From the NCBI GenBank assembly GCA_026392465.1, contig JAPLCA010000005.1, positions 62,001-126,000 on the forward strand: a stretch of DNA of 64,000 nt, in the 5' to 3' direction. The stretch comes from Propionibacteriales bacterium (GTDB taxonomy: Bacteria; Actinomycetota; Actinomycetes; Propionibacteriales; Nocardioidaceae). Under the pieces are notes generated by a model that saw only the letters and a list, made by a program, of their open reading frames with translations, was not told where the DNA came from and searched no databases. Shown here in pieces: positions 14,345 through 34,531 of the stretch. The stretch's first letter is position 1; each line of letters begins with the position of its first letter. The translations under genes and the position numbers were made by a program.

Positions 14345-14421
14345 CGCGGGGTGGAGCAGTTCGGTAGCTCGCTGGGCTCATAACCCAGAGGTCACAGGTT
14401 CAAATCCTGTCCCCGCTACCA
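14345..14421 (+). tRNA. Initiator tRNA-Met (fMet, anticodon CAT)
   Basis: The 77-nt cloverleaf runs from CGCGGGG to CCCCGCT-A-CCA, with the CCA encoded. The anticodon stem ends in the three G-C pairs GGG/CCC flanking CTCATAA, and the first acceptor pair is an unpaired C1/U72. Both are hallmarks of bacterial initiator tRNA. The T arm is ACAGG-TTCAAAT-CCTGT. The gene marks the boundary where high-GC chromosome gives way to the mobile element, so its 3' region is a likely integration target. Confidence 0.96.
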
Positions 14422-14926
14422 AAAGTAAGTCGTTGGAACCACGGTCCTCTGAGGGCCGTGGTTCTTTCTTTTCCCATGAGAGGTGACCCCGAGGGCGTTC
14501 GAGGGTCAGAAACGGTCGAATCCGGTCCTCGGGCCGTGTTCGACGGGCGCGCGGCGGCAAGTCCCATGAGCCCTGCTCGCCACCCCTGTGGGCGTTTTCA
14601 TCGACCCCTGGCAGAGCGTAGAGGCCACTAGTTCTGGTCTGACGCTTTTGGTGGGTCTTCCGCTCGCTCTCCAGTTCGACGGCGAGGTCTTCGGAGATGA
14701 GTCGCCGGAATGCCTCATTCATGTCGCTCGCCACGATCTCGTCGTCATCGACGTAGAGGTGCTCGAACATGGCTTGGTTGAGTTCGCGTCGTGCGAGCTT
14801 GTCCGCCTGCTCGTAGTGCTTCTGACCACTGGTCAGGAGTTCGAGACACAGCTCAAGAGAACGAGTGATGACACCTTCGTCGAACTTGTGCTTCGAGGAC
14901 TCGGCCTCGATGGCACCGCGGCGCAC
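14378..14926 (-). pseudogene. Detached C-terminal part of the large serine recombinase
   Basis: The first 85 or so codons encode a typical serine-recombinase C-terminus (FDEGVITRSLELCLELLTSG, HYEQADKLARRELNQAMFEH, LYVDDDEIV). The natural continuation of the recombinase at 14853-16118 is therefore in this frame. From about 14660 down, the frame loses family character. It runs through the tRNA terminator and ends as an antisense reading of the tRNA (GTGFEPVTSG), so the real stop is missing or has been altered at the junction. Bases 14732-14938 are duplicated at 29218-29424. Confidence 0.7.
14436..14470 (+). terminator. Intrinsic terminator after tRNA-fMet
   Basis: A 13-bp stem, GAACCACGGTCCT paired with AGGGCCGTGGTTC (one G-T pair), with a 3-nt loop and the T-rich tail TTTCTTTTCC lies 15 bp past the tRNA CCA end. 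Confidence 0.85.
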
Positions 14927-14938
14927 CGCCAGTCGACT
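14732..14938. repeat. 207-bp direct repeat, left copy
   Basis: Identical to 29218-29424 except at 14796 (A here, C there), and in the same orientation. It lies in the recombinase C-terminal coding region. Confidence 0.95.
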
Positions 14939-16118
14939 CGCGGTTGGCTGCGCTCGACGGGAGCACGATGCCCATGTGCTCGAGAAGCAAGGCGCGGATC
15001 TGCGCGACGTGCGTGGACTTCATCGTGACGGTCTTCCAGTGCTCTTGTACGAGCCGTTCGAGCTGAGCGGCCTCGATCGCACGGAAGGTGCACCCGTTCC
15101 GGTGGCTATTGCGGCCGATGCAGATGAAGTAGTCGTAGGTGGTGCCTTGGCGGTTGCGCGACCTGGCAAAGGTCAGCGGCTCACCACACTGCCCGCAGAA
15201 GACGGATCCCTTCAGGTAGTGGTTGAAGACGCGAGGCTTCTCCTTGCTCTGTGCCCTGGCGGCGCGCATGCGTTGGACGCGCTGGAACAGTTCTTCGGAC
15301 ACCAGTGCCTCGTGCTGCCCCGGGTACTCGACGCCCTCGAAGGTGACGAACCCGAGGTAGTAGCGATTGCGAAGAATGGCGTGGACGTGAGAGGTGGCGA
15401 TTGGACGGCTCGGCCGATTTGGACGTGGACGTGTCATGACGCCTCGTCGGTTGAGTTCGTCACGAAGTGCGGCTGCGGTCCAGTCGCCGGATGCATAGTG
15501 CTCGAAGATCCACGGCACCCACTCGGCGCGCTCGGAGTCGAGCTCGACAGTGCGAACCTCGCGGCCATCGTTGTTGCGGGTACGAGTGTTGATGTAGCCG
15601 AAGGGCGCCATGCCGGCGGTGCCCCCGTTCTTCACCTTCTGGCGCATCCCCTTCTTGGACTCAGCAGCCAGGTTGCGCGAGTAGAACTCCGCGATCGAGC
15701 TCATGATGCCGTGTAGGAGCACACCGCTCGGTGTCTCATCGATGTTCTCGGAGCACGACACCAGCTGTGCGCCGGATGCTTGGAGCTGCAGGTTGATCTC
15801 GACGTCGTCGGCTCGGTTACGAGCGAGGCGGTCGACCTTGTGCACGATGACGTGGGCGACCTTGTTCTGTCTGATGAACTTCAGCATGTTCTTGAGCTCG
15901 GGCCGGTTGGCCGAGCGAGCGCTTTCCCCGGCATCGACGAACTCAGCAACGACGACGGCACCGAGGGACTCGGCTTTGCGAAGGCACGCGTCGCGCTGCG
16001 CTGGGATGGAGAAGCCTTCCGCCTCACCGCCGCGTGAGGCCTGGTCCTTGGTGCTCACCCGTAGGTAGATGACGGCCATCGGGCGAATACCGATCGGAGC
16101 CAGTGCGATGTCGTTCAT
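14853..16118 (-). CDS. Large serine recombinase/integrase, frame-disrupted near the C-terminus
   Basis: The 421-residue reading frame has an N-terminal resolvase domain (catalytic Ser 22 in YLRVSTKDQ; RLARN; SSIAEFYSRNLAAES), a central recombinase domain (FGYINTRTRNN ... ILRNRYYLGFVTFEGVEYPG) and a zinc ribbon (SVFCGQCGEPL ... YFICIGRNSHRNGC). After roughly LLLEHMGIVLPS the sequence turns into unrelated Arg/His-rich residues, while the proper C-terminal coiled region continues in another frame at 14926 and below. A one-base-equivalent frameshift near 14935-14975 explains both. ATG 16118 follows GAGGAG and overlaps the ImmA-like gene by 4 bp. It is the integrase of the element; whether it still works is doubtful. 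Confidence 0.88.
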   Translation of the reverse strand: MNDIALAPIGIRPMAVIYLRVSTKDQASRGGEAEGFSIPAQRDACLRKAESLGAVVVAEFVDAGESARSANRPELKNMLKFIRQNKVAHVIVHKVDRLARNRADDVEINLQLQASGAQLVSCSENIDETPSGVLLHGIMSSIAEFYSRNLAAESKKGMRQKVKNGGTAGMAPFGYINTRTRNNDGREVRTVELDSERAEWVPWIFEHYASGDWTAAALRDELNRRGVMTRPRPNRPSRPIATSHVHAILRNRYYLGFVTFEGVEYPGQHEALVSEELFQRVQRMRAARAQSKEKPRVFNHYLKGSVFCGQCGEPLTFARSRNRQGTTYDYFICIGRNSHRNGCTFRAIEAAQLERLVQEHWKTVTMKSTHVAQIRALLLEHMGIVLPSSAANRESTGGAPRCHRGRVLEAQVRRRCHHSFS

Positions 16119-16765
16119 GCGTATCTCCTCTGGGAGTAGCGAGGACGGGTGGCACGAAACCGCTGCGCCTTGGATCGAGGGGTGGCGACGGGACGGGCGC
16201 AGCGAGGCGCCGGGACCTTATCGACGACGACGTCGAGACCAGTCTGAGACAGACGGACGCGCATGGCGTCGGGGCTGACGCTGAACTGTGACGCGAGGTC
16301 TTCAACGCGCTGCACCCTGTTGCCCCATGCTGACTTGAGGGCGCGCTTGTCGACGAGCGCGCAGCCGGCGAAATAGTCGGCGGCGGACTCGGCCTGCTGT
16401 TCAGCCGTGTGGCGGCGATCCCCGGTGTAGAGCAGATCAGTCGAACCATGGTCGACGATGTGCTTGAACTCGTGGAGCAAGGTGAAACGTTGGCGCGTGA
16501 CACTCTCGGTCTTCGAGAGAGCAATTACCCAGTGCTTGCCGTTCCAGTAGCTCAGACCGGATACCGGCAGGACTTCGTGCACGACGCGGATGCGCGGCAT
16601 TGCAGCCACATGAAGTTCGTGGATGCCGTCGACGTCATCAATGAGGTCGACCAGTCGGCGGGCTTGCTGTTCAGCGATCTGCAGCGCCTCGGCGAAGTTC
16701 ACGACGCGGTGCGGCAGCAGGGCGCGGAGGCTCGAGAGTGGTGATGGTGATGGTGATGTGTTCAT
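16115..16765 (-). CDS. ImmA/IrrE family metallopeptidase
   Basis: The 216-residue protein has the zinc-protease motif HEFKH at residues 98-102 in LLHEFKHIVDH and a downstream ESAADYFAG helix that supplies the third ligand, as in the ImmA/IrrE (DUF955) family. Members cleave or antagonise the Xre-type repressor of the same mobile element and so trigger excision and transfer. The gene lies 44 bp after the XRE gene and overlaps the recombinase start by 4 bp, so repressor, anti-repressor and integrase form one operon. A strong AAAGGAGG precedes its ATG. Confidence 0.92.
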   Translation of the reverse strand: MNTSPSPSPLSSLRALLPHRVVNFAEALQIAEQQARRLVDLIDDVDGIHELHVAAMPRIRVVHEVLPVSGLSYWNGKHWVIALSKTESVTRQRFTLLHEFKHIVDHGSTDLLYTGDRRHTAEQQAESAADYFAGCALVDKRALKSAWGNRVQRVEDLASQFSVSPDAMRVRLSQTGLDVVVDKVPAPRCARPVATPRSKAQRFRATRPRYSQRRYA

Positions 16766-16809: not shown

Positions 16810-17196
16810 TTACTGCGCTTCGTCCTCGCCGGGGTTCGGCCCGCCGGGGTCGTAGCCATGCTTGGCAGCGATACGGGCGAAGGTCTTTTCGAGCTCTGCC
16901 TGAGCGCTGTCAGGAAGGTCGCTGTACTTGCTGCGCAGGTAGGGCGCGAAACTCGGCAGTCCGTTGGTCGGCATGACGCCAGCGGTGGCGTAGAGGTCGG
17001 AAGCATCGAGGTCGAGCACGTCAGCTAGAGATTTGAGCGTCTCGATTCCCGGGTTCGCAATCGCGCCCTGTTCCAGGCGTCTGACGCTTGAGGCGACGAG
17101 GCCGCTTCGAGTCGCTACTTCACGGGCTGAGAGCCCTTGAGTTTCGCGTGACTGCTGCAGCATTTTCCCGAGTTTCCGAGCTTGCTTTTCGTCCAT
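16810..17196 (-). CDS. XRE family HTH transcriptional regulator (element repressor)
   Basis: The 128-residue protein has a Cro/C1-type HTH in its first 65 residues (LSAREVATRSGLVASSVRRLEQG, then GIETLKSLADVLDLDASDLY). A short helical tail (LPDSAQAELEKTFARIAAKHG) is a plausible target for the neighbouring ImmA-like protease. ATG 17196 has GGAGA 8 nt upstream and is preferred over ATG 17208, which lacks a ribosome-binding site. Its promoter region carries one copy of the palindrome that also occurs twice before the transfer operon, implying autorepression and control of both operons. Confidence 0.9.
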   Translation of the reverse strand: MDEKQARKLGKMLQQSRETQGLSAREVATRSGLVASSVRRLEQGAIANPGIETLKSLADVLDLDASDLYATAGVMPTNGLPSFAPYLRSKYSDLPDSAQAELEKTFARIAAKHGYDPGGPNPGEDEAQ

Positions 17197-17230: not shown

Positions 17231-17260
17231 ATTATACGCCTTGTGTTGCATAAATGCACC
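17231..17260 (-). promoter_or_regulatory. Repressor-gene promoter with operator O1
   Basis: A perfect TATAAT -10 box on the minus strand (17231-17236) lies upstream of the XRE gene. The segment 17245-17260 reads GTTGCATAAATGCACC, a copy of the 16-bp palindrome found at 23013-23028 and 23047-23062 with its last two bases changed. It overlaps the -35 region, so binding there would block the promoter. Confidence 0.7.
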
Positions 17261-17385
17261 ACCCAATTTGCGCTTTCCGGGCCTGACCGCTGGGACGAAC
17301 GTGCAGATTTGTCAGCGCGACGGGGGATGCTCAGGAGAGCGGACGTTCGAGCAGACGGCGTCCTCGACAGCCAGGGAGTCGAGCC

Positions 17386-17661
17386 TTGATCTACATCACC
17401 GGGATCAGCATGAGTCCGAAGGACTCGCAGCAGCACGAGCACATCACGCATGTCTATTGGTCTGAGTACGGCACTTCCAATGAGGCGTGGTGGACGAAGC
17501 AGCGGGCGGTCGACTGGATCAACGGTGGCGGCGAGGCCCGGGTGTCGGCTGACGGCCGGTACGACGTCAAGGTGCACGTCGTGAATGCCAGCCCGCCCTA
17601 CTTGAGGACGGCGGCGAACGGCACGTACACCGACAACCTGCTGAGCCTGCCCCGCTTCTAG
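17386..17661 (+). CDS. DUF3892 domain-containing protein
   Basis: The 91-residue protein starts at TTG 17386 with CAGGGAG upstream. It matches the short DUF3892 family: a leading beta strand IYITGISMS, the HITHVYW core, an Ala/Val-Asp-Trp helix, and the diagnostic end YLRTAANGTYTDNLLSLPRF. The function is unknown; some members sit next to mobile-element or restriction genes. It is the only plus-strand gene in this part of the element and converges with the transfer operon. Confidence 0.8.
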   Translation: MIYITGISMSPKDSQQHEHITHVYWSEYGTSNEAWWTKQRAVDWINGGGEARVSADGRYDVKVHVVNASPPYLRTAANGTYTDNLLSLPRF

Positions 17662-17749
17662 TTCTGGTTGTTCAGCGCGACAGGAACCGAGCGACGTGCC
17701 GGGTGGGCAGCGTCGACGGTTCCTGTCGCGAGAGAGGCGTGACTTCACC

Positions 17750-18025
17750 TCAGGCTCCGGCGCTCTTCGAGCGGGAGCTTGTGCGCGGCTTGGTGCCATC
17801 TCCGAAGAGTCCGGCGATGGCGGCGCGCTGCTCGGCAGCTTCACGGTCGATCTCGGCGGCCAGCGACTCAGCCTTGGCTGAGATCTCTGGGTCGTTCGAC
17901 ATCTTGGTGAGGCGCTCCTCGATGGCAGTACGGATGGTGTCCGTGACGGCCACTTCGGCGAGCTTCGACAGGATGGTCAGACGAGCGTGCTGCTCATCTT
18001 CCAGTCGTACGGCGAGTGTCTTCAT
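17750..18025 (-). CDS. Small ribbon-helix-helix-like regulator (antitoxin/ParD-like)
   Basis: The 91-residue protein begins MKTLAVRLEDEQHARLTILSKLAEV, the strand-helix-helix pattern of MetJ/Arc/CopG-type DNA-binding proteins. An acidic helical middle and a basic Ser/Arg-rich tail (TKPRTSSRSKSAGA) follow. ATG 18025 has an excellent AAGGAGGAG. It is the last gene of the minus-strand transfer operon, 127 bp after ArdA. No toxin partner is visible next to it, so a role in regulation or plasmid-style stability is possible but unproven. Confidence 0.75.
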   Translation of the reverse strand: MKTLAVRLEDEQHARLTILSKLAEVAVTDTIRTAIEERLTKMSNDPEISAKAESLAAEIDREAAEQRAAIAGLFGDGTKPRTSSRSKSAGA

Positions 18026-18152
18026 GTGCCTCTCCTCCTTCCTGAGGGACTTGTCCGAGGGTGTTGCTCGGAGCACCTCCTCGGGGTGGTGCGACCGGCG
18101 ACGGCGGATGCCGTCGCAATCAGCGGTCGCAGGCCCCCGATGAGGCCGTCGG

Positions 18153-18725
18153 TCAGAGCCGATAGATGTAGACGCCGCCGTCCGAGGCGTCTTCGTAGTG
18201 CAGGTCGACCAGCAGGTCTCGCAGCACGCCGTCGCGATCAATTGAGACGTGGGCTGCGAGCCAGTCGGGCAACGAGTCGGCGAGTGACTCACGAATGCCG
18301 AGATCGTCGAGTAGGTCGTCGACGAAGGCGCTGAGGGAGTGCCAGTAACCGACGAAGGCCTCGACGTAGCCAGTCTCGAGGTCCTCGCCACGTGCGCCGG
18401 ATAGCTGGGCGTAGGTGGCGAAGGCTTCCCCGTCCTCGGCGATCCCTCGGGCGACGGCGGCCACTTGGTGCAGGTCCTCGTACTCACCGACGCGGTACGG
18501 ACCGAAGTTGTCGAAGTCGAAGATGGCCCACTCCTCTGCCCCAGGCTCTTGACTCGTCGCGAGGATGGCCTCTGCTGCGGCGACGAGTTCCTCTCCCTCG
18601 ACGGCCGCGTCGACCCAGTCGCCATGGAGCCGGCCGGCGTTGTAGTCGGCCAAGCTGGCGATCCAGACTCGAGGCGAGTCCGGGGTTGATTCGTGCTCTG
18701 GACTTGCTGGTTGCTGTTCATTCAT
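18153..18725 (-). CDS. ardA: Antirestriction protein ArdA
   Basis: The 190-residue product is strongly acidic and has the ArdA family layout: PRVWIASLADYNAGRLHGDWVDA at the start, EEWAIFDFDNFGP in the middle, and a long acidic helical region to VYIYRL. ArdA mimics B-form DNA and blocks type I restriction enzymes, protecting a conjugative element as it enters a new host. ATG 18725 follows AAAGGAGGTG and overlaps the methyltransferase stop by 4 bp. The frame is open far upstream over the methyltransferase, but that part is a shadow. Confidence 0.93.
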   Translation of the reverse strand: MNEQQPASPEHESTPDSPRVWIASLADYNAGRLHGDWVDAAVEGEELVAAAEAILATSQEPGAEEWAIFDFDNFGPYRVGEYEDLHQVAAVARGIAEDGEAFATYAQLSGARGEDLETGYVEAFVGYWHSLSAFVDDLLDDLGIRESLADSLPDWLAAHVSIDRDGVLRDLLVDLHYEDASDGGVYIYRL

Positions 18726-19741
18726 GACACCTCCTTTCGGTTGCTTGTTGATGGGTGGCGGACCGCCTGCTCGATGCGCTCGTTGGCGAGTTCGACGAAG
18801 TCCGGGTTGAGCTCGATACCCAGCCAGTCGCGGCCGAGCTTGCTTGCGGCGATGGCAGTTGTCCCTGACCCGATGAACGGGTCGAGCACGATGCCCGGTT
18901 CGGCGGACTCGTGGTCGCAGGTCGGGCGTGGTGGTGCTCGTTCTGCTGCGTCCCCGGTGCGGATGAGTTTTCGGGTCCACGGCGCGCGGCACTGGCTGCA
19001 GCGGATACGCGGCGTCCCTGCTTCGACCATGCGGCGCGCCAGACTTTCGGGGAAAGTCGCGAAGTGGGCGCCGCGGAAGCCGCTGACGCCGAGCCGCCAG
19101 ACGTCGCCCGGGTTCTTGCCGAGCGGGTGGCCCCGGATACCCCGGGCATGCAGCTTGGCGAGTCCGCTGTCGCCGTCGCTGTTGGGGCCGAGCCAGGCCG
19201 GTCGCTCGTCGCGGATGGTGATGGCGCGCTTCTTCGGGACGCGGCTGGTGTGCGGCTCGCGGATGCTGTCGAGGTCGAAGTAGTACGTGCGGGAGCGGAC
19301 CAGCAGGTAGACGAGTTCGTAGCGAGTGCTGAGGCGGTCGGTGACGCTGGAGGGCACGGTGGTGGTTTTGGCCCAGACCACCTTGTTCCGGATCGTCCAT
19401 CCGTCCTCGATGAGCGCCAGTGCTAATCGCTCGGGACCAAAGAGCAGGCTCTTACGCGTCGCCCCTTCTCTTTTGTGCGTGCTGAAGCTGTCGCCGAGGT
19501 TGAGCCAGACGGTGCCGGTCGGAACGAGGACACGGGCGGCTTCTTGCAGCACGGCGCGGAGGTGGCTGACCCAGTCGTCGATATGTGACTCGAGGCCAAG
19601 TTGTCCGGTCGCCTGGTAGTCGCGGAGGCGGAAGTACGGCGGGCTGGTGACGAGGCTGTCAATGGAGTGGTCCGGGAGGTCGGCGAGCCGTTCGGTGGCG
19701 TCTCCGGTCAGGATCTGATTGCGGGGGAGATGTCTCGTCAT
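18722..19741 (-). CDS. Orphan DNA methyltransferase (N4-cytosine/N6-adenine type)
   Basis: The 339-residue protein has catalytic motif IV TSPPYF at residues 32-37 and the AdoMet-binding motif I DPFIGSGTT near residue 290. Motif IV before motif I is the beta-class order typical of N4-C and N6-A enzymes. A CxxC...C cluster (RIRCSQCRAPW ... PTCDHE) may bind zinc. No restriction endonuclease is adjacent, so it likely self-marks the element's DNA against host restriction, complementing ArdA. It overlaps both neighbours by 4 bp within the transfer operon. Confidence 0.92.
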   Translation of the reverse strand: MTRHLPRNQILTGDATERLADLPDHSIDSLVTSPPYFRLRDYQATGQLGLESHIDDWVSHLRAVLQEAARVLVPTGTVWLNLGDSFSTHKREGATRKSLLFGPERLALALIEDGWTIRNKVVWAKTTTVPSSVTDRLSTRYELVYLLVRSRTYYFDLDSIREPHTSRVPKKRAITIRDERPAWLGPNSDGDSGLAKLHARGIRGHPLGKNPGDVWRLGVSGFRGAHFATFPESLARRMVEAGTPRIRCSQCRAPWTRKLIRTGDAAERAPPRPTCDHESAEPGIVLDPFIGSGTTAIAASKLGRDWLGIELNPDFVELANERIEQAVRHPSTSNRKEVS

Positions 19742-20688
19742 GGCAGCGGCTCCCGGAGCACAGCCTGCACGGTGTCGGCGGTGGCGAAGCGGTAGAGCTC
19801 AGGCGTCAGGCGCGGCGAACGCAGGATGGCAGCCTTCAGCTTCTCTGCCCGGTCGCTCCGGCTGAACATCCAGAGCACCAGCGGGAAGGCGCCGTGCGTC
19901 TCCTGCTCGATGCCGCTCGCCCGATAGGCCTCGTACTGGCCGCACTTCTTGAGTAGTGTCGGCAGCGACTCAGTGCCGAGGTCGACCTCGATGAACCAGC
20001 GGTCGCTGAAGTCGGTCAGGTGGATGATCACCGCCAGGTCTGGTTGCAGCCAGCGCGGTTCACCACCAGGACCGGTGTAGCGCCGCCACGAGGTCGGCTC
20101 TGTTTCGACGTGGACCTTGGTGACGTTGCTGATCTTCTCGAGATCGAGCGCACCGAGGTGGACGTCGGCGATCGCGAGGCAATGCTTGAGGAAGCGCAGT
20201 GATGGTTCGTGGGTGCGCTTGGTGGCGCCGTCGTCCTGGATGAGGCGAGCGCCGGCTGGGGCAAGCTGCCAGACCTTCGCGGCGCTGCCAGCACGGCTGC
20301 CGCCGACGCGCTGCTGGGTTACCCGGATCAGGGCGTTACGGGCCAGGCGCTGCAGCACATGCCGGGTCGTGCGAGCAGCAGACTCAGGCGTGCCGAGGGT
20401 CGTGAAGACGAAGGACTGGATGTGGTGGGTCGTCAGGTAGCGGTGCTCAGAGATGCGGCGGAGCACTTCCCAGTCGCGCTCTGGCATGAGTTCGGCGATG
20501 CGGGCCAGCACGTCAGCGTCGACGCGGCGGCGACGCTTGCTGGGGGTGAGCTCCGGAGACAGAGTCGCCGGAGTATTCGTCCCCCGAAGGGCGCGGAACT
20601 CTGCCCTGACCAGCGAAGATGTCCGATCCGGCTCGGTGCCGAGCGGAAGGGCGAGCGGAAGCCCTCTACCGGGGATGTAACGGGTCAT
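19738..20688 (-). CDS. Replication-relaxation family protein
   Basis: The 316-residue protein matches the Replic_Relax family of actinobacterial plasmids and integrative elements. Its N-terminal winged-helix part includes DWEVLRRISEHRYLTTHHIQ and RTTRHVLQRLARNALI; a beta-rich domain with LQPDLAVIIHL and FIEVDLGTESL follows and resembles a nuclease fold (D...ExD). Family members are needed for plasmid replication and mobilisation, possibly as the relaxase or its accessory. It lies directly between the coupling ATPase and the methyltransferase, with 4-bp overlaps on both sides. Confidence 0.88.
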   Translation of the reverse strand: MTRYIPGRGLPLALPLGTEPDRTSSLVRAEFRALRGTNTPATLSPELTPSKRRRRVDADVLARIAELMPERDWEVLRRISEHRYLTTHHIQSFVFTTLGTPESAARTTRHVLQRLARNALIRVTQQRVGGSRAGSAAKVWQLAPAGARLIQDDGATKRTHEPSLRFLKHCLAIADVHLGALDLEKISNVTKVHVETEPTSWRRYTGPGGEPRWLQPDLAVIIHLTDFSDRWFIEVDLGTESLPTLLKKCGQYEAYRASGIEQETHGAFPLVLWMFSRSDRAEKLKAAILRSPRLTPELYRFATADTVQAVLREPLP

Positions 20689-22781
20689 GAGGAGCCTCCA
20701 TCTGCGGGACGACGCGGAGCGCGGCCGAAGGTTTCGCGGGACGAGCGCGGTGGCTCGATGAGGCCGAGCAGATCGGCTTCGACCTCGCTCAGCGGCTGGC
20801 CGTAGCGCTGGCGGGAGCGCTCTCTCGGCTCGTCGGCGGTCCGCAGCGCCTGGGGGAGCGGTTCGGTAGTGACGCTGACCCAGTCGCCGGGTTCGTTGCG
20901 GCTAAGGAGCGAGGCGTAGGCAGCGAAGGCCGGCAGCGACTCGAAGTCCTGAGGCACTAGGCGTCCGCGCGTCGTCGCCGCGATGTCGCGGGCATCCGCG
21001 TGTGGCAGCCCGAAGGCGACGCGGGAACGAGCGTTGGCAAGGACGGCTCTACGCAGCTGCTGCGGCAGCTGGTCGAGGTGCTGGTGAGCCAGCGTGTAGC
21101 CGACGCCGAGGCCACGGGCCTGGGCGAGCGCGTCACCGAGGTCGCCGGGCAGTCGCAGGTAGTCCTGCACCTCGTCGATGTGCACCATGACGGGATGGCG
21201 CTTCGCCGACGGCAGATCGACTCGGGCAAGCGCGGCCGTCCAGAGCTGCGACACCACGATGGAGCCGAGCAGGTCGGCGGCCTCGGGCCCGACGGCACCC
21301 TTGGCGAGGCTGACGAGGAGCACCTTCTTCTTGGTGAAGACGTCGCGCATGTCGAACTTGGGTTTGCGCTGCCCGAAGATGGCGCGGATGCCGGGGCGCA
21401 TGAGGATGGGTCGGAGGCGACGTAGGAGCGGCGCGGTGGCCTGCTGCCGCTCGGCGTCTGAGATGGCGTCGTACCACCCCCAGTACGCACCGAGCCCCAT
21501 TGGGTCGTCCGTGCTCGCCTGCCCCACGATGGAGCGACGGAAGCCGGGGCTAGAGAGCAGCAGCGGCAGCATGGCGATCGAGGCGTCACCGCGACGTGCC
21601 AGCGTCAGCAAGCTGGCCTGGAGCAGCTCGTGTGTTCGTGGCAGCCAGCCCTCGCCGTAGAGCGAGCGAAACAACGCCAGCAGCACGTCGGCAGCCAGAT
21701 CGGGGTCACTCGTGCCCGTAAGCGGGTTGAGCCCCACTGGCATCTGATCGCGGGCGTCGAGCACCACGACCCGGTCGAGGTGACGCTCGTCGATCCGGGT
21801 CAAGAGGTCGTCGATGACGTCGCCCTTCGGGTCGATGACTGCCACGCCGCGACCGGCGTTGATGTCTTGCAGCGCGAGGTGTGTGAGCAGCGTGCTCTTG
21901 CCGACGCCGGTTGGCCCGATGAGGTGCAGGTGGCGGAGTGAGTCTTCGACAGAGAGCGCGACGCGTCGAGTGGACGAGGTAGAAGAGACGCCGATTGACC
22001 GACCGCTGCGCGCCACCGCGTCGGACGGGGTGAGGAGCCGCGGATGCGGCGACCGGACACCGGGCAGCCGATCCGACGAAGCAGCGACGGGCCAGCCAGT
22101 AAGGGGGACGAGGTCCGAGACGCTGAGGGAGTTGGACCAGACGAGTGGACTCTTGGCGTACGAGAACTGACCGAGCGAGGCGCGGCTGACGCTGAGTCGG
22201 AGGCCCGGTGCTTCGAGTTGACGGAGCGCTCCGATGACTCCTTCGATGAGGCTGCGTGAGCGGGCCGGGTCCGACGTGGAGGCGCCAACGCGCACCCCGC
22301 AGGCGAAGCGGTGCTCGAGTCGTTTCGGACTCTGGCGGCGGTTCGGGGGGAGTGGCCGACTCGGACGAGAACGCGGGCCAAGGACAAGCTGGAGATGAAC
22401 GAGCTCTCCCTTTCGTGCGCTCGCCAGTACGGTGAGGACGCCGCGGGTCGTTGGCTGAATGGCGTTGTGGTTGAGCGGCGCTGCGCGGTCACCGCGGACC
22501 TTGAGTGCGGCGGCGGTGTCGGCTCGCAGTCCGTCGAAGGTGGAGGCGCGGCGCTGACTGCGTAGGTCGGGCAGCTGGCCGCCGAGCGCGCGAAGGATGC
22601 GCGGCGTATCGGTGGCGTTGGCGCCGAGCTTCCAGGTGACCGCACCCTGCCGACCAGTGGCTTCGAGAACGATGCGCGGTTGTCCGCTGAGCCCCGCCAG
22701 TGAGGACAGGGCTGCGCGAGCAGCGTCCTCGCTGACGGGGGCCGGGATGAAGAGGTCGGTCCAGATGAAGGGCCCGCTCAC
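20685..22781 (-). CDS. VirD4/TraD-like conjugative coupling ATPase
   Basis: The 698-residue ATPase has Walker A GPTGVGKST near residue 286, the following VAVIDPKGDVIDDLL typical of VirD4/TraG/HerA proteins, and Walker B VMVHIDEVQDY near residue 535. The C-terminal part (TLAHQHLDQLPQQLR, ANARSRVAFGL) is the arginine-finger region of this family. The N-terminal 250 residues are soluble rather than two membrane helices, as in many actinobacterial type IV secretory DNA-transfer proteins. It would pump element DNA to the recipient. No VirB4 or pilus genes accompany it here. Confidence 0.9.
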   Translation of the reverse strand: MSGPFIWTDLFIPAPVSEDAARAALSSLAGLSGQPRIVLEATGRQGAVTWKLGANATDTPRILRALGGQLPDLRSQRRASTFDGLRADTAAALKVRGDRAAPLNHNAIQPTTRGVLTVLASARKGELVHLQLVLGPRSRPSRPLPPNRRQSPKRLEHRFACGVRVGASTSDPARSRSLIEGVIGALRQLEAPGLRLSVSRASLGQFSYAKSPLVWSNSLSVSDLVPLTGWPVAASSDRLPGVRSPHPRLLTPSDAVARSGRSIGVSSTSSTRRVALSVEDSLRHLHLIGPTGVGKSTLLTHLALQDINAGRGVAVIDPKGDVIDDLLTRIDERHLDRVVVLDARDQMPVGLNPLTGTSDPDLAADVLLALFRSLYGEGWLPRTHELLQASLLTLARRGDASIAMLPLLLSSPGFRRSIVGQASTDDPMGLGAYWGWYDAISDAERQQATAPLLRRLRPILMRPGIRAIFGQRKPKFDMRDVFTKKKVLLVSLAKGAVGPEAADLLGSIVVSQLWTAALARVDLPSAKRHPVMVHIDEVQDYLRLPGDLGDALAQARGLGVGYTLAHQHLDQLPQQLRRAVLANARSRVAFGLPHADARDIAATTRGRLVPQDFESLPAFAAYASLLSRNEPGDWVSVTTEPLPQALRTADEPRERSRQRYGQPLSEVEADLLGLIEPPRSSRETFGRAPRRPADGGSS

Positions 22782-22963
22782 GAGGACTTCTCCTTGTGAG
22801 CGTCGGCCTCGGCTTGGGCCTCCTTCTCGGCCTGCGCGAGCGCCAACGCCTGGATGGTGAGGGCGATGCGGGCGAGGTCGGGCTGCTTGCGAACGTCCGC
22901 ACGGATGCGAGCACGACGCTCACGACGACGCCTCGTTGGTTTGGATGGCTTGTTTGTGGACAT
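22778..22963 (-). CDS. Small basic protein, first gene of the transfer operon
   Basis: The 61-residue protein has a very basic N-terminal half (KPSKPTRRRRERRARIRADVRKQ) and a helical Ala/Glu-rich second half (LAQAEKEAQAEADAHK). ATG 22963 follows AAAGGAGGT and is 50 bp downstream of the operator palindromes; its stop overlaps the ATPase start by 4 bp. It may bind DNA or the ATPase; I do not recognise a family. Confidence 0.7.
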   Translation of the reverse strand: MSTNKPSKPTRRRRERRARIRADVRKQPDLARIALTIQALALAQAEKEAQAEADAHKEKSS

Positions 22964-23012
22964 GCGAAATAGACCTCCTTTCAGGGTTGGTGCTTTGGCG
23001 TTGGCGACACAT

Positions 23013-23062
23013 GTTGCATTTATGCAACGGTCTGCCTTTACTATGCGTTGCATTTATGCAAC
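23013..23062. promoter_or_regulatory. Tandem operators O2 and O3 before the transfer operon
   Basis: Two perfect 16-bp palindromes GTTGCATTTATGCAAC occupy 23013-23028 and 23047-23062, with centres 34 bp apart. The same palindrome, with its last two bases changed, lies at the XRE repressor promoter (17245-17260). They sit between the transfer operon start (22963) and the upstream small-gene run. A looser AATGCA...TGCATT pair follows at about 23067-23083. This looks like the main repressor-controlled promoter of the element. Confidence 0.8.
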
Positions 23063-23117
23063 GGTCAATGCAGTTTGTGCATTCGACAACAGCGAGCGGA
23101 AGGCTGGCTGATCTGGA

Positions 23118-24517: not shown

Positions 24518-25513
24518 ATGCAAGACCTTGACCCAGAGCTCGACCGACAACTACGCCTCCTTCACTCACAAGGACTGGCTCACATCGATGTGGACCAGGT
24601 TGGCCAGATCCTCGAACTTCCGGTCGTCAAGGCACACCTGCAGGAGTCGAACGATTCAGATCCGCGCGCGGGTCTAATGGATGCCCTCGTCACCGCAGCC
24701 AATCGGCTGAGCCAGAAGGACCGCGACCTAGTCGTTCTGCTCTTTGGGATCGAGCATGCGTATGGGTGGGGCGTGCAGAAGCGCCACGTCGCAGTCGCTG
24801 CTGAGTCCGGGCTCTCCTGGAACGTCTTCCGGCATTCACCCTTCGAGGGATTGAGGAAGCGACTCGTGTCGGTTCTGGCGAGCGAGAAACCGACCTTCCG
24901 GAGGGCGGTCTCGCCTGGCGGTGCCGGATACCGCTTGGAAGTGCTCGAGCACGATTACGTCGTACCGACAGAGAGCGATCCGTCCATCGTGGTGATGGAG
25001 CGGCGGCGACTGGTTGCCGAAACCGATGGCCTTGAAGAGTGGCGCATCCCCATCTGGTACCACCTGAGCTCGCTCGACGGTGATCCAACGATCCGACTGA
25101 TTGGTTCGGGGAAGCTCGCGTTCGAGCCCGTGATCCTGCGCGGTCAGGAAGGCGCGGGATTCAAAGCCGATCTGTCAGTGAGGTTCCCGCGCCCGCTGTC
25201 CCATGGAGAGTCGTTCGAGTTCAAGCTCTACCGACGAATCCCCGTCAATCTGGAGGCCTACCGGAAGGCAATGGGACCGTTCTACACCGGCTTCGACCTT
25301 CTACCGCGGGCAGAGCGGCTCGATATTCGGGTTCAGTTTGACCCCGACCACCTACCGGAGCGACTGGAGCGACAGGACGGAGTGACGCCGTCGCAGCAGT
25401 TCGAATTTGGAGCTGTCGGCACGGAAGCTGTCGAACTCGGCACGCGAACAGAAGTTCGCTGTCATTGGAAGAACACCCAACCGAGGTACTGGTACGGGCT
25501 AATCTGGGAGTAG
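24518..25513 (+). CDS. Unknown 331-aa protein, candidate accessory/defence factor
   Basis: Residues 60-125 resemble a helical module frequent in uncharacterised actinobacterial proteins: RLSQKDRDLVVLLFGIE, then QKRHVAVAAESGLSWNVFRHSPFEGLRKRLVSVLA, similar to an HTH in which an R..AA..G.S...R...E pattern recurs. The C-terminal 200 residues look beta-rich, with a conserved-looking end QPRYWYGLIWE. No signal peptide, nuclease motif or membrane helix is visible. A TAAAAT -10 box and GGGGAG precede ATG 24518. GC and codon use are lower than in the chromosome. Its position beside an OLD-type nuclease in mobile-element cargo suggests a defence or sensing role, which is inference. Confidence 0.75.
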   Translation: MQDLDPELDRQLRLLHSQGLAHIDVDQVGQILELPVVKAHLQESNDSDPRAGLMDALVTAANRLSQKDRDLVVLLFGIEHAYGWGVQKRHVAVAAESGLSWNVFRHSPFEGLRKRLVSVLASEKPTFRRAVSPGGAGYRLEVLEHDYVVPTESDPSIVVMERRRLVAETDGLEEWRIPIWYHLSSLDGDPTIRLIGSGKLAFEPVILRGQEGAGFKADLSVRFPRPLSHGESFEFKLYRRIPVNLEAYRKAMGPFYTGFDLLPRAERLDIRVQFDPDHLPERLERQDGVTPSQQFEFGAVGTEAVELGTRTEVRCHWKNTQPRYWYGLIWE

Positions 25514-25835: not shown

Positions 25836-27806
25836 ATGCGCTTGAAGTCGATCAAGGTCCAAAGGTTTCGTAACTTCGTCGAGGCTCAGACCGTCGATAT
25901 CGAGGATGACGTCACGTGTCTCGTCGGTAAGAACGAAAGCGGCAAGACGACCGTTCTGAAAGCGCTGCATCGCCTCAATCCAGCTAACGGCTCGGAGCGA
26001 TCGTTCGATCTGACTACCGAGTACCCCCGTTGGCGGCTTGCTCGTGATCGTCGCGCCGACGCAAATATCTCGAAGACCAAGCCTGTGGAGGCAGTCTTCG
26101 GCTTGACTGACAGCGACTTTGACGAGTTTGAGTCCAACTTCGGTATCCGTCCGCCGGCTTCGCTCGAAGTGCACGCCGCCCGCAACTACGACAACGGCAA
26201 GTTGATCTGGTTGTCGTGCTCGCGCACTGCAGTGATTCAGAAGGCCGCAGAGGACGTGGAGATCAGCGGAGAGGATCTCGAAGGCCTCGTGGCTGCTGGT
26301 TCCTACGCGGACGCCCGTTCGACCGCCAAGGAGACGGCCAAGCAGCTCAAGGAAGCTGGCGAGGCGCTGCGCTCCAAGGCTATGAGCGCCTTCGGCACGT
26401 CACTCAACAAGTACGCCTTCATCTATGACGGCGAGATGGAGCAAGAGCAGCGAGACCGGATGTGGAACTCCCTGCCCGAGTTCTTCTACTTCTCGAACTA
26501 CAACATTCTGCCGGGCGAGACGGATCTCAACGAGCTTCAGACGAAGATCGATGACGGCGAGGAACTTGACGATGGGGAGCGATCCGTGCTCGCGCTGTTG
26601 GCTCACGCTGGTGAGACTCCGCAGGATTTCATGGACGCTGACTATGACAGTCGCAAGGCTGAACTCCAGGCCGCCAGCGCCGACTTGAGTTCCCACGTGT
26701 TCGAGTACTGGAAGCAGAACCAGGACCTTGACGTCATCTTCGATACGGACAATGTGGTCGTCCGCGAGGTCAGTGGCAACGAGAAAACGCATCGAATCCT
26801 CAAGATCGAGCTTCGCGATGGGCGACACGGAAACGTCGAGACGAACTTCTCGACTCGATCCACTGGCTTCCAGTGGTTCTTCTCGTTCTTCGCAGCTTTC
26901 AGCGAGTACCAGAGTTCGGGCAACTCGATCATCGTCTTGCTCGACGAGCCGGGAACGAGTCTGCACGGCGACGCGCAGCGAGACTTCGTTCGCTTCATTT
27001 TCGAAGAGCTGGGCGCCTCCAAGCAGACGATCTACACGACTCATTCGCAGCACATGGTCGATCCGACCAAGTACGAAAAGCTTCGAGCCGTTCACGACCG
27101 GGCGACCCGTCAGGATCCTGATCAAGGCGTCAAAGTGACGCCAATTCAACTGAGTGCCGACCCCTCAACGATCTTGCCGGTGGAGTCCGCCCTCGGGTAC
27201 TCGGTGAGTCAGCACCTCTTCATTGGGTCAGGACAGCATCTCTTGGTCGAAGGCAGCAGTGACTTCGTCTACATTCAGCGCCTCACGGAGCACCTGCTGG
27301 TGAACCCGGAAGGTGACTGCAGCGGCCTGGATCCGCGCCTTGCGATCTTGCCCGTCGGTGGCATCGACAACATGCCTGCGTTCGTTGCGCTCCTCGGTCG
27401 CCGCCTCGCGGTTTCAGCGCTTGTGGACGGCGACCGCACGAATGCGAAGTTGCAGCGTGTGAAGAAGGCGGCTAACCACAACGGAGTCGACGAGAGCGTG
27501 ATCGTTGTCTGCTCGGACATCGACAAGATGCCCACCAATGCCGACATCGAGGATCTCTTCGACGTGGCTGACTATCTGAAGCTCTACAACTGGGCGTTCG
27601 ATAGCAATCTGAAGGCGGCTGATTTGCTTGAAACTGATGAGCCAATCGTCAAGAAGATCACGTCGATCCGTGGCGCCTTCGACCACGCGCTGCCTGCCCA
27701 CGCACTGACGACGCATCGTGAAGAATTCTTCTCGGGGATCAAACCCAAGTCAGTGAAGCAGTTCACCGCGTTAATCGAGAAGCTGAACGCTACGGTCAAA
27801 ATTTGA
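25836..27806 (+). CDS. OLD family ATPase/TOPRIM nuclease
   Basis: The 656-residue protein starts with an SMC/RecF-like ATPase: Walker A GKNESGKTT at residues 31-39, a long helical insertion, and Walker B/D-loop IIVLLDEPGTSLHG (Asp 370, Glu 371) with THSQHMV as the H-loop. A TOPRIM nuclease domain follows: Glu 472 in LLVEGSSDFVYI and the DxD pair Asp 531/Asp 533 in ALVDGDRTN. This is the architecture of phage P2 OLD and Gabija GajA. No UvrD-like helicase (GajB) lies next to it, so it fits the stand-alone class 1 OLD group. It probably gives phage exclusion. It has its own promoter region and GGAG. Confidence 0.88.
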   Translation: MRLKSIKVQRFRNFVEAQTVDIEDDVTCLVGKNESGKTTVLKALHRLNPANGSERSFDLTTEYPRWRLARDRRADANISKTKPVEAVFGLTDSDFDEFESNFGIRPPASLEVHAARNYDNGKLIWLSCSRTAVIQKAAEDVEISGEDLEGLVAAGSYADARSTAKETAKQLKEAGEALRSKAMSAFGTSLNKYAFIYDGEMEQEQRDRMWNSLPEFFYFSNYNILPGETDLNELQTKIDDGEELDDGERSVLALLAHAGETPQDFMDADYDSRKAELQAASADLSSHVFEYWKQNQDLDVIFDTDNVVVREVSGNEKTHRILKIELRDGRHGNVETNFSTRSTGFQWFFSFFAAFSEYQSSGNSIIVLLDEPGTSLHGDAQRDFVRFIFEELGASKQTIYTTHSQHMVDPTKYEKLRAVHDRATRQDPDQGVKVTPIQLSADPSTILPVESALGYSVSQHLFIGSGQHLLVEGSSDFVYIQRLTEHLLVNPEGDCSGLDPRLAILPVGGIDNMPAFVALLGRRLAVSALVDGDRTNAKLQRVKKAANHNGVDESVIVVCSDIDKMPTNADIEDLFDVADYLKLYNWAFDSNLKAADLLETDEPIVKKITSIRGAFDHALPAHALTTHREEFFSGIKPKSVKQFTALIEKLNATVKI

Positions 27807-29217: not shown

Positions 29218-29424
29218 CACGATCTCGTCGTCATCGACGTAGAGGTGCTCGAACATGGCTTGGTTGAGTTCGCGTCGTGCGCGCTTGTCCGCCTGCTCGT
29301 AGTGCTTCTGACCACTGGTCAGGAGTTCGAGACACAGCTCAAGAGAACGAGTGATGACACCTTCGTCGAACTTGTGCTTCGAGGACTCGGCCTCGATGGC
29401 ACCGCGGCGCACCGCCAGTCGACT
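29218..29424 (-). pseudogene. Recombinase C-terminal fragment; 207-bp direct repeat, right copy
   Basis: This is the second copy of the recombinase 3' coding segment at 14732-14938, same orientation, with a single substitution at 29282. It still reads RLAVRRGAIEAES ... LYVDDDEIV in frame, but both ends are cut: unrelated bases follow on the C-terminal side and the copper promoter starts 12 bp beyond the other end. It is dead as a gene. Its near identity to the left copy means it arose recently, or that the copies are kept alike by recombination. Confidence 0.9.
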
Positions 29425-29435
29425 GGCTCGCGCAC

Positions 29436-34309: not shown

Positions 34310-34531
34310 TCAGGTCAGTCGGCGTCCTTGCGGTCGAACTTCGACACCGGCGTCACGGAGGATTCGCAACACAGTGCTCTTGCCCACGCCGAACCGTTCA
34401 GCGGTTTCGAGCGCGCTGACCGTACCCGATTGATAGTGCTCAACTATCTGCAGACGTAAGCTCGCTGTGAGGCGAGCTCGAGCACGAGTTGAGACCTGGG
34501 TCGAGTCTTCGTGTTCGGAAGGCTTCGACAT
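34310..34531 (-). CDS. Small HTH protein, recombinase-type remnant
   Basis: The 73-residue product (ATG 34531) contains a Hin/resolvase-like helix-turn-helix (LTASLRLQIVEHYQSG, SALETAERFGVGKSTVLRILRDAGV) and a basic end. Such stand-alone HTH proteins accompany or derive from serine recombinases and transposases. It lies at the right edge of the copper module, consistent with a mobile-element boundary. No catalytic domain is present nearby, so it may be a relic. Confidence 0.68.
   Translation of the reverse strand: MSKPSEHEDSTQVSTRARARLTASLRLQIVEHYQSGTVSALETAERFGVGKSTVLRILRDAGVEVRPQGRRLT

Follow-up and report, generated by a model that had tools for sequence, protein, structure and literature searches.

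A shared palindromic operator predicted to link the XRE repressor and the transfer operon of an actinobacterial integrative element

Introduction

Can a single DNA site hold both the repressor and the transfer genes of an integrative element in check? The question is raised by a 64,000-nucleotide stretch from Propionibacteriales bacterium (assembly GCA_026392465.1, contig JAPLCA010000005.1, positions 62,001 to 126,000 of the forward strand), referred to here in its full length as the window, in which an island abutting a tRNA gene carries an XRE-type repressor candidate, a neighbouring ImmA-like metalloprotease, a serine recombinase, and a predicted transfer operon. An initial annotation of this DNA proposed that a 16-bp operator is shared by the repressor and the transfer operon. 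The proposal is supported here, and is right in substance, on the evidence of the uniqueness of the site in its genome, its recurrence in relatives, the joint change of operator letters within elements, and a trend linking those letters to the repressor's recognition helix. At a probability of roughly 0.82, the palindrome serves the element's XRE repressor as its operator; the repressor would keep both predicted operons shut until an ImmA/IrrE-type protease destroys it.

The arrangement resembles ImmR/ImmA of ICEBs1 (Bacillus subtilis) and immRA of TnSmu1 (Streptococcus mutans), in which, as here, an XRE-type repressor has a neighbouring metalloprotease and the element lies at a tRNA gene (PMC6540685, PMC10233336). 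Loss of the repressor activates both elements (PMC6540685, PMC10233336), and ImmA cleaves ImmR (PMC6540685).

Operator sites in the window and genome

The palindrome, GTTGCATTTATGCAAC, is present in two exact copies at 23013–23028 and 23047–23062, separated by 34 bp from start to start and located ahead of the predicted transfer operon, as the initial annotation had stated. A third site, at 17245–17260, reads GGTGCATTTATGCAAC on the minus strand and lies at the promoter of the repressor gene xre; two end changes had been ascribed to this copy, whereas the minus-strand reading shows a single arm base that differs from GTTGCATTTATGCAAC. The perfect TATAAT said to stand beside it was found at 17231–17236 on the minus strand, 8 nt downstream.

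When up to three mismatches are allowed, the search of the window returns six lines, which are these three places read on two strands, against 0.03 expected, and none of 100 shuffled sequences reaches six. In the entire genome (3,693,493 bases, up to two mismatches) the same three places are the only matches and a reversed-pattern control gives none, so that the palindrome is confined to the element. A scan of the genus, presumably Aeromicrobium, at up to one mismatch finds matches in 4 of 49 genomes, namely the source genome, Aeromicrobium sp. Root344, and two genomes having one stray site each. The matches in Aeromicrobium sp. Root344 lie within an element of its own, which encodes a repressor 73% identical to that of the window and has one repressor-side and two transfer-side sites, with the same 34-bp spacing.

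Related elements

Related loci were collected with an XRE profile (A1) built from 45 sequences, which has matches in 8 of 341 genomes at family level, 15 of 391 at order level, and 15 of 393 at class level (overlapping sets that each include the source genome), and identifies 10 loci in a collection of genome contigs. The 42 loci examined comprise the window (WIN) and 41 others, several of them cut by contig ends and two, L022 and L086, weak members having profile scores of 44 and 49. Within this set a protease is present at 38 loci, a recombinase at 35, a Replic_Relax protein at 35, a T4CP-like protein at 31, a methyltransferase at 23, ArdA at 19, and a same-strand gene of ribbon-helix-helix (RHH) type at 20. 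The XRE protein has no match among 72,556 plasmid records at an E-value of 1e-5; in viral contigs it has none in a single-sequence search and two weak ones in an alignment search, one of which (L022) lacks the other genes of the module. The T4CP-like protein matches 39 plasmid records, none over 80% of its length and at most 58% among the 15 matches listed, and two phage records, both of phage G.

Ahead of xre, palindromes of the form 7-2-7 were sought 48–72 bp upstream of the gene at the 41 loci, window included, that have upstream sequence. At least six of seven pairs are formed at 19 of these loci, compared with 1.62 expected from shuffles and 3 loci in a control window of the same width. 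On the transfer side, the DNA preceding the T4CP gene in 31 elements (limited to 9 and 59 nt in two of them) was searched without regard to letters for similar palindromes 32–39 bp apart, form and spacing being given. Pairs 34–37 bp apart, each unmatched in 100 shuffles, were found in 12 elements (WIN, L012, L014, L017, L018, L058, L061, L064, L065, L066, L068, and L069). A pair in L085 is equalled by 1 of 100 shuffles and stands at no promoter of this form, and it was left out of the count. Among the elements missed by this search, inspection by eye reveals pairs in L015, L019, and L067, single sites in L075, L077, and L080, and one repeated site in L059 and L060. The expectation that the motif would be found in related elements is thus borne out, and it recurs there at the same two places, before xre and before the transfer genes.

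Promoter register

A consensus scan places a predicted transfer promoter on the minus strand, with −35 TTGACC at 23063–23068 and −10 CATAGT at 23040–23045, such that operator 1 (23047–23062) fills the 17-nt spacer and a single base separates it from the −10 hexamer. Operator 2 (23013–23028), identical to operator 1, follows 34 bp downstream along transcription at about +5 to +21 of the putative start site. At the predicted xre promoter, the operator (17245–17260) ends 8 nt before the −10 TATAAT and therefore covers the −35 region. Overall, the consensus scan is not elevated against chance (3 promoter-like sites versus 2.0 in shuffles), and the register of the transfer promoter counts as evidence because relatives keep both hexamers in the same place. 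A palindrome forms the −35/−10 spacer ahead of the T4CP gene in 16 of 31 elements versus 0.05 expected, the pattern sought being TTG-N3, a palindrome of 16, one base, and a −10-like hexamer; this figure is descriptive because the pattern was drawn up after some of these promoters had been viewed. On the repressor side, a −10-like hexamer lies 7–9 nt past the site in 23 of 33 xre promoters.

A second conserved box, GTTGTGGAAT, precedes the operators by a constant distance at both promoters of many elements (for example L014, L061, and L064). The window copy, GTTGTCGAAT, lies on the minus strand at 23081–23090, 12 nt before the −35 hexamer of the transfer promoter, and within the window the box is clear at this promoter only. 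With up to two mismatches allowed, 8 of the 15 transfer promoters examined have the box 18 nt before operator 1, with the −35 hexamer in between, and L067 becomes a ninth if the distance is measured from its first operator; of 33 promoters on the repressor side, 18 have it 9–12 nt ahead of the site, inverted in three. In six elements missed by the pair search (L015, L019, L067, L075, L077, and L080), TTGAC and a palindrome come after the box. Searching 396 genomes of the phylum for the complete promoter pattern with up to two mismatches returned 18 places, one of them the window, versus 11 for the reversed pattern, and no new element was recognized among them.

A protein bound in the spacer or over the −35 region is expected to exclude RNA polymerase. 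The position of the operator nevertheless differs between the xre and transfer promoters, in accord with an alternative in which the sites are bound by the XRE protein but its main role is that of an activator or a dual regulator, activating the repressor promoter while repressing the transfer promoter. Given that the site over the −35 region and the site in the spacer should both block polymerase, such a role appears improbable here. A precedent for it is RcoLS20, a repressor of conjugation in Gram-positive bacteria that acts on its own promoter negatively or positively depending on its abundance (PMC6540685).

Co-divergence of operators and repressors

If the XRE protein binds both sets of sites, repressor-side and transfer-side letters should change together from element to element. 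For the 12 elements having pairs, the repressor-side site was picked on palindromy and position alone; these sites differ from their own transfer-side sites by 1.67 mismatches of 14 arm bases, as against 4.42 when compared with those of other elements. The own-site pairing is equalled by none of 20,000 random pairings, and in 11 of 12 elements no other element is strictly closer.

The operator letters fall into specificity groups: GTTGCAT (WIN and L012, and with changes L064–L066), GCTGCAT (L014), GTTGAGT (L017 and L018), GATGCG (L058 and L067), TTTGAAT or GTTGAAT (L061, L068, and L069), GTCC.. (L015 and L019), GTTCAAT (L075 and L077), GTTTACT (L080), and GTACACA (L059), together with ATTGCAA (L072–L074), which is seen only at the xre promoter. 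Judged by eye, the repressors' recognition helices fall into like groups. This relation was assessed by comparing 10-residue windows of the repressor with operator distance after removal of the distance over the rest of the protein. The best-correlated windows are residues 30–39 (15 elements, partial r 0.51), 33–42 (25 elements, 0.47), and 31–40 (20 elements, 0.41), in a protein whose modeled helix 3, the recognition helix, spans residues 35–42. With the window fixed, none of 2000 permutations reaches the observed value. Operator letters thus tend to follow the recognition helix of the repressor.

The same observations bear on whether the palindrome is bound instead by another protein of the element, such as the small RHH-type protein, as in plasmid self-regulation, with the XRE protein acting elsewhere. 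RHH proteins often autoregulate their own operons, and the gene that closes the window's transfer operon (17750–18025, minus strand) encodes a small putative protein of this type, a fold that we presume; its PF07704 match is weak and below the cut-off. A binder of this kind is nevertheless very unlikely: one site lies within the promoter of xre itself, the letters follow the XRE recognition helix (modestly after correction), and a sequence search detects no RHH relative beside L017, L018, L058, and L065, all of which have clear operator pairs.

The proposed switch

The predicted repressor operon runs on the minus strand from xre (16810–17196, 128 aa) to the immA-like gene of an M78 metalloprotease (16115–16765) and then to the frame of a serine recombinase, or integrase (14853–16118), which overlaps the protease gene. 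The XRE protein has HTH_31 and HTH_3 domains above cut-off, and the HTH part of its model (mean pLDDT 82.9) resembles C.BclI, SinR, and DdrO. The ImmA-type protease that the initial annotation had seen in the element lies beside the repressor: the protein matches PF06114 with 66.8 bits (cut-off 22) and carries the motif HEFKH. HExxH is present in 37 of the 38 neighboring proteases across loci, and the H, E, K, and H of the motif are among 55 invariant columns in an alignment of 45 sequences. The closest folds to the protease model (mean pLDDT 84.6) are IrrE/PprI structures (3dte, 8sln, 3dti, and 8slm; query TM-scores 0.42–0.48). The locus thus has the small XRE/HTH repressor and adjacent M78 protease with HExxH of ImmR/ImmA-type systems and, as predicted from sequence, repressor sites in the promoters of both the transfer genes and the repressor.

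A dimer of the repressor would bind each palindrome and, by occupying RNA polymerase sites, would shut xre-immA-int and the transfer operon together, the doubled site perhaps giving the transfer operon a tighter closure than the repressor operon, which is autoregulated. Cleavage of the repressor by the neighboring protease would release both, the trigger perhaps being DNA damage, as in ICEBs1. The earlier statement that the repressor silences both operons stands insofar as a site is shared by two operons, and it is extended by the integrase, which falls within the predicted repressor operon, such that the two are xre-immA-int and the T4CP/Replic_Relax operon. Because int sits behind xre and immA, loss of the repressor would raise integrase and DNA-transfer proteins at once.

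Several results weigh against this reading. Palindromes of five of seven pairs before xre often arise by chance (33 of 41 loci have one, against 11.4 expected and 18 in the control window), and this threshold alone proves little because such palindromes are frequent in shuffles and control window alike. These frequencies are what an origin of the sites as chance palindromes in AT-richer intergenic DNA would predict, an origin that is nonetheless scarcely credible, since the repeats are exact, spacing and promoter register are fixed, and the letters diverge together. The letter-blind search ahead of the T4CP gene yields no pair in 19 of 31 elements, and several remote relatives (for example L071, L072, L083, and L085) show no site there. 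A test of own versus swapped 16-mers, made without reference to palindromes, was mixed: the own match ranks among the best three in 15 of 29 cases, and what matches in L019 and L067 is the GTTGTGGAAT box. This test was blunted by the box, and the palindrome-based test of co-divergence therefore followed it. When corrected for choice of window, the helix correlation is modest, with the observed value reached by 72 of 2000 permutations for 20 elements and by 65 of 2000 for 17, three near-duplicates having been dropped; it is therefore supportive and not decisive. Cleavage of the repressor by the ImmA-like protease is suggested by family resemblance. Finally, the integrase frame of the window has 454 stop-to-stop residues, shorter than in 33 of 34 relatives (522–1040), the exception being L019 with 201. 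The integrase looks broken or mis-sequenced, its 3′ part appearing to continue in another frame at 14378–14926. With operator binding, repression, proteolysis, and its trigger all at the stage of prediction, and with an integrase frame that looks broken, the window copy is not established as a complete switch.

Genes and boundaries of the island

The predicted transfer operon (22963–17750) lies upstream of xre and in the same direction. Its minus-strand genes encode a small basic protein without family match (22778–22963), a T4CP-like ATPase related to TrwB/TraD/HerA (20685–22781), a Replic_Relax protein (19738–20688; PF13814, phage family 'replication initiation by nicking'), an N6/N4 DNA methyltransferase (18722–19741), the antirestriction protein ArdA (18153–18725), and the RHH-type protein described above. 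The T4CP-like ATPase and the Replic_Relax protein suggest that the operon has a role in transfer. Among the proteins scanned, which are not all frames of the island, neither VirB4 nor a classical relaxase was found, save that the T4CP-like protein matches TrbE weakly, with scores far under the cut-off. Between the end of this operon and the xre promoter, a small plus-strand frame (17386–17661) is directed away from xre; the corresponding gap in Aeromicrobium sp. Root344 seems too short for a counterpart.

On its left side the island ends at tRNA-Met (14345–14421, plus strand). Homology to G005, a congener in which the search found no relative of xre, breaks off at 14425, immediately beyond this gene; together with the serine recombinase this points to integration at the tRNA gene, and the element of Aeromicrobium sp. 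Root344 likewise abuts tRNA-Met. The right end was not found: beyond 14425 the next matches to the congener begin at 34326 (69% identical, from elsewhere) and 35220 (90%), with other congener DNA between. The 3′ end of the integrase region is directly repeated over 210 nt (99%), at 14732–14941 and 29218–29427, 14.5 kb apart; the repeat may be what is left of a second or nested element.

Further into the window, an AAA-15/OLD-like TOPRIM ATPase (25836–27806), whose best defense match is an AriA model, adjoins a 331-aa protein without family matches (24518–25513), and the two are possible defense cargo. The segment 28132–33607 encodes a cation efflux protein, an ArsR-type regulator, a P-type ATPase, and a DUF305 protein, which are metal-handling cargo by family names.

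Discussion

What is new in comparison with the known ImmR/ImmA kind is that the predicted repressor operon includes the integrase, that the promoter register is fixed, and that the operators have diversified. Unlike ICEBs1 and TnSmu1, the element described here has int following in the repressor operon, transfer genes of the T4CP/Replic_Relax/methyltransferase/ArdA kind, and a palindrome in fixed promoter register at the head of each operon; the available text of the TnSmu1 paper has no match for operator or binding site (PMC10233336). A second likeness is to DdrO/IrrE of Deinococcus, in which an XRE repressor has palindromic promoter sites, its own included, and the zinc metalloprotease IrrE cleaves and inactivates it (PMC5552922, in part), as is predicted here. 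DdrO and IrrE are themselves among the closest folds of the XRE protein and the protease. Their regulon is a chromosomal one of radiation response with one 17-bp motif, whereas the present system belongs to a mobile element and has many operator specificities.

Related repressors having diverged site specificities are also known from Cluster A mycobacteriophages, where they give homo- and heteroimmunity, although there monomers bind 20–30 asymmetric sites (stoperators) instead of the three symmetric sites found here (PMC6550527, in part). Actinomycete integrative and conjugative elements (AICEs) such as pSAM2 are likewise integrated actinobacterial elements, some with small XRE proteins; the accessible text of the AICE paper has no match for ImmA, operator, replication-relaxation, or ArdA (PMC3218068). 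A T4CP-like gene, Replic_Relax, and ArdA occur together within a predicted Rhodococcus prophage (PMC12915292, in part), and the available text of a survey of Mycolicibacterium mobile elements has no match for ImmA, XRE, or ArdA (PMC8190616). A literature search by titles and abstract openings, mostly outside subscription journals, yielded no description of this operator layout.

The broader interpretation, to which we assign about even odds, is that these loci form a widespread family of actinobacterial integrative elements sharing one promoter grammar, in which a GTTGTGGAAT box is followed by 12 nt, TTGAC, an operator as spacer, CATAGT, and a second operator. The family would have radiated into many immunity groups by joint change of operator letters and recognition helix, so that co-resident elements avoid mutual silencing, and the GTTGTGGAAT box would mark a second regulator common to the groups. 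By analogy with heteroimmunity in phages (PMC6550527, in part), the specificity groups may let elements coexist without silencing one another. If the operator layout holds, the conserved register would supply exact sites to test and the regulon of each element would be readable from its sequence, while the natural repressor-operator pairs of differing specificity would be useful for deciphering the HTH recognition code. It would also open the question of whether integrated elements form immunity groups as temperate phages do.

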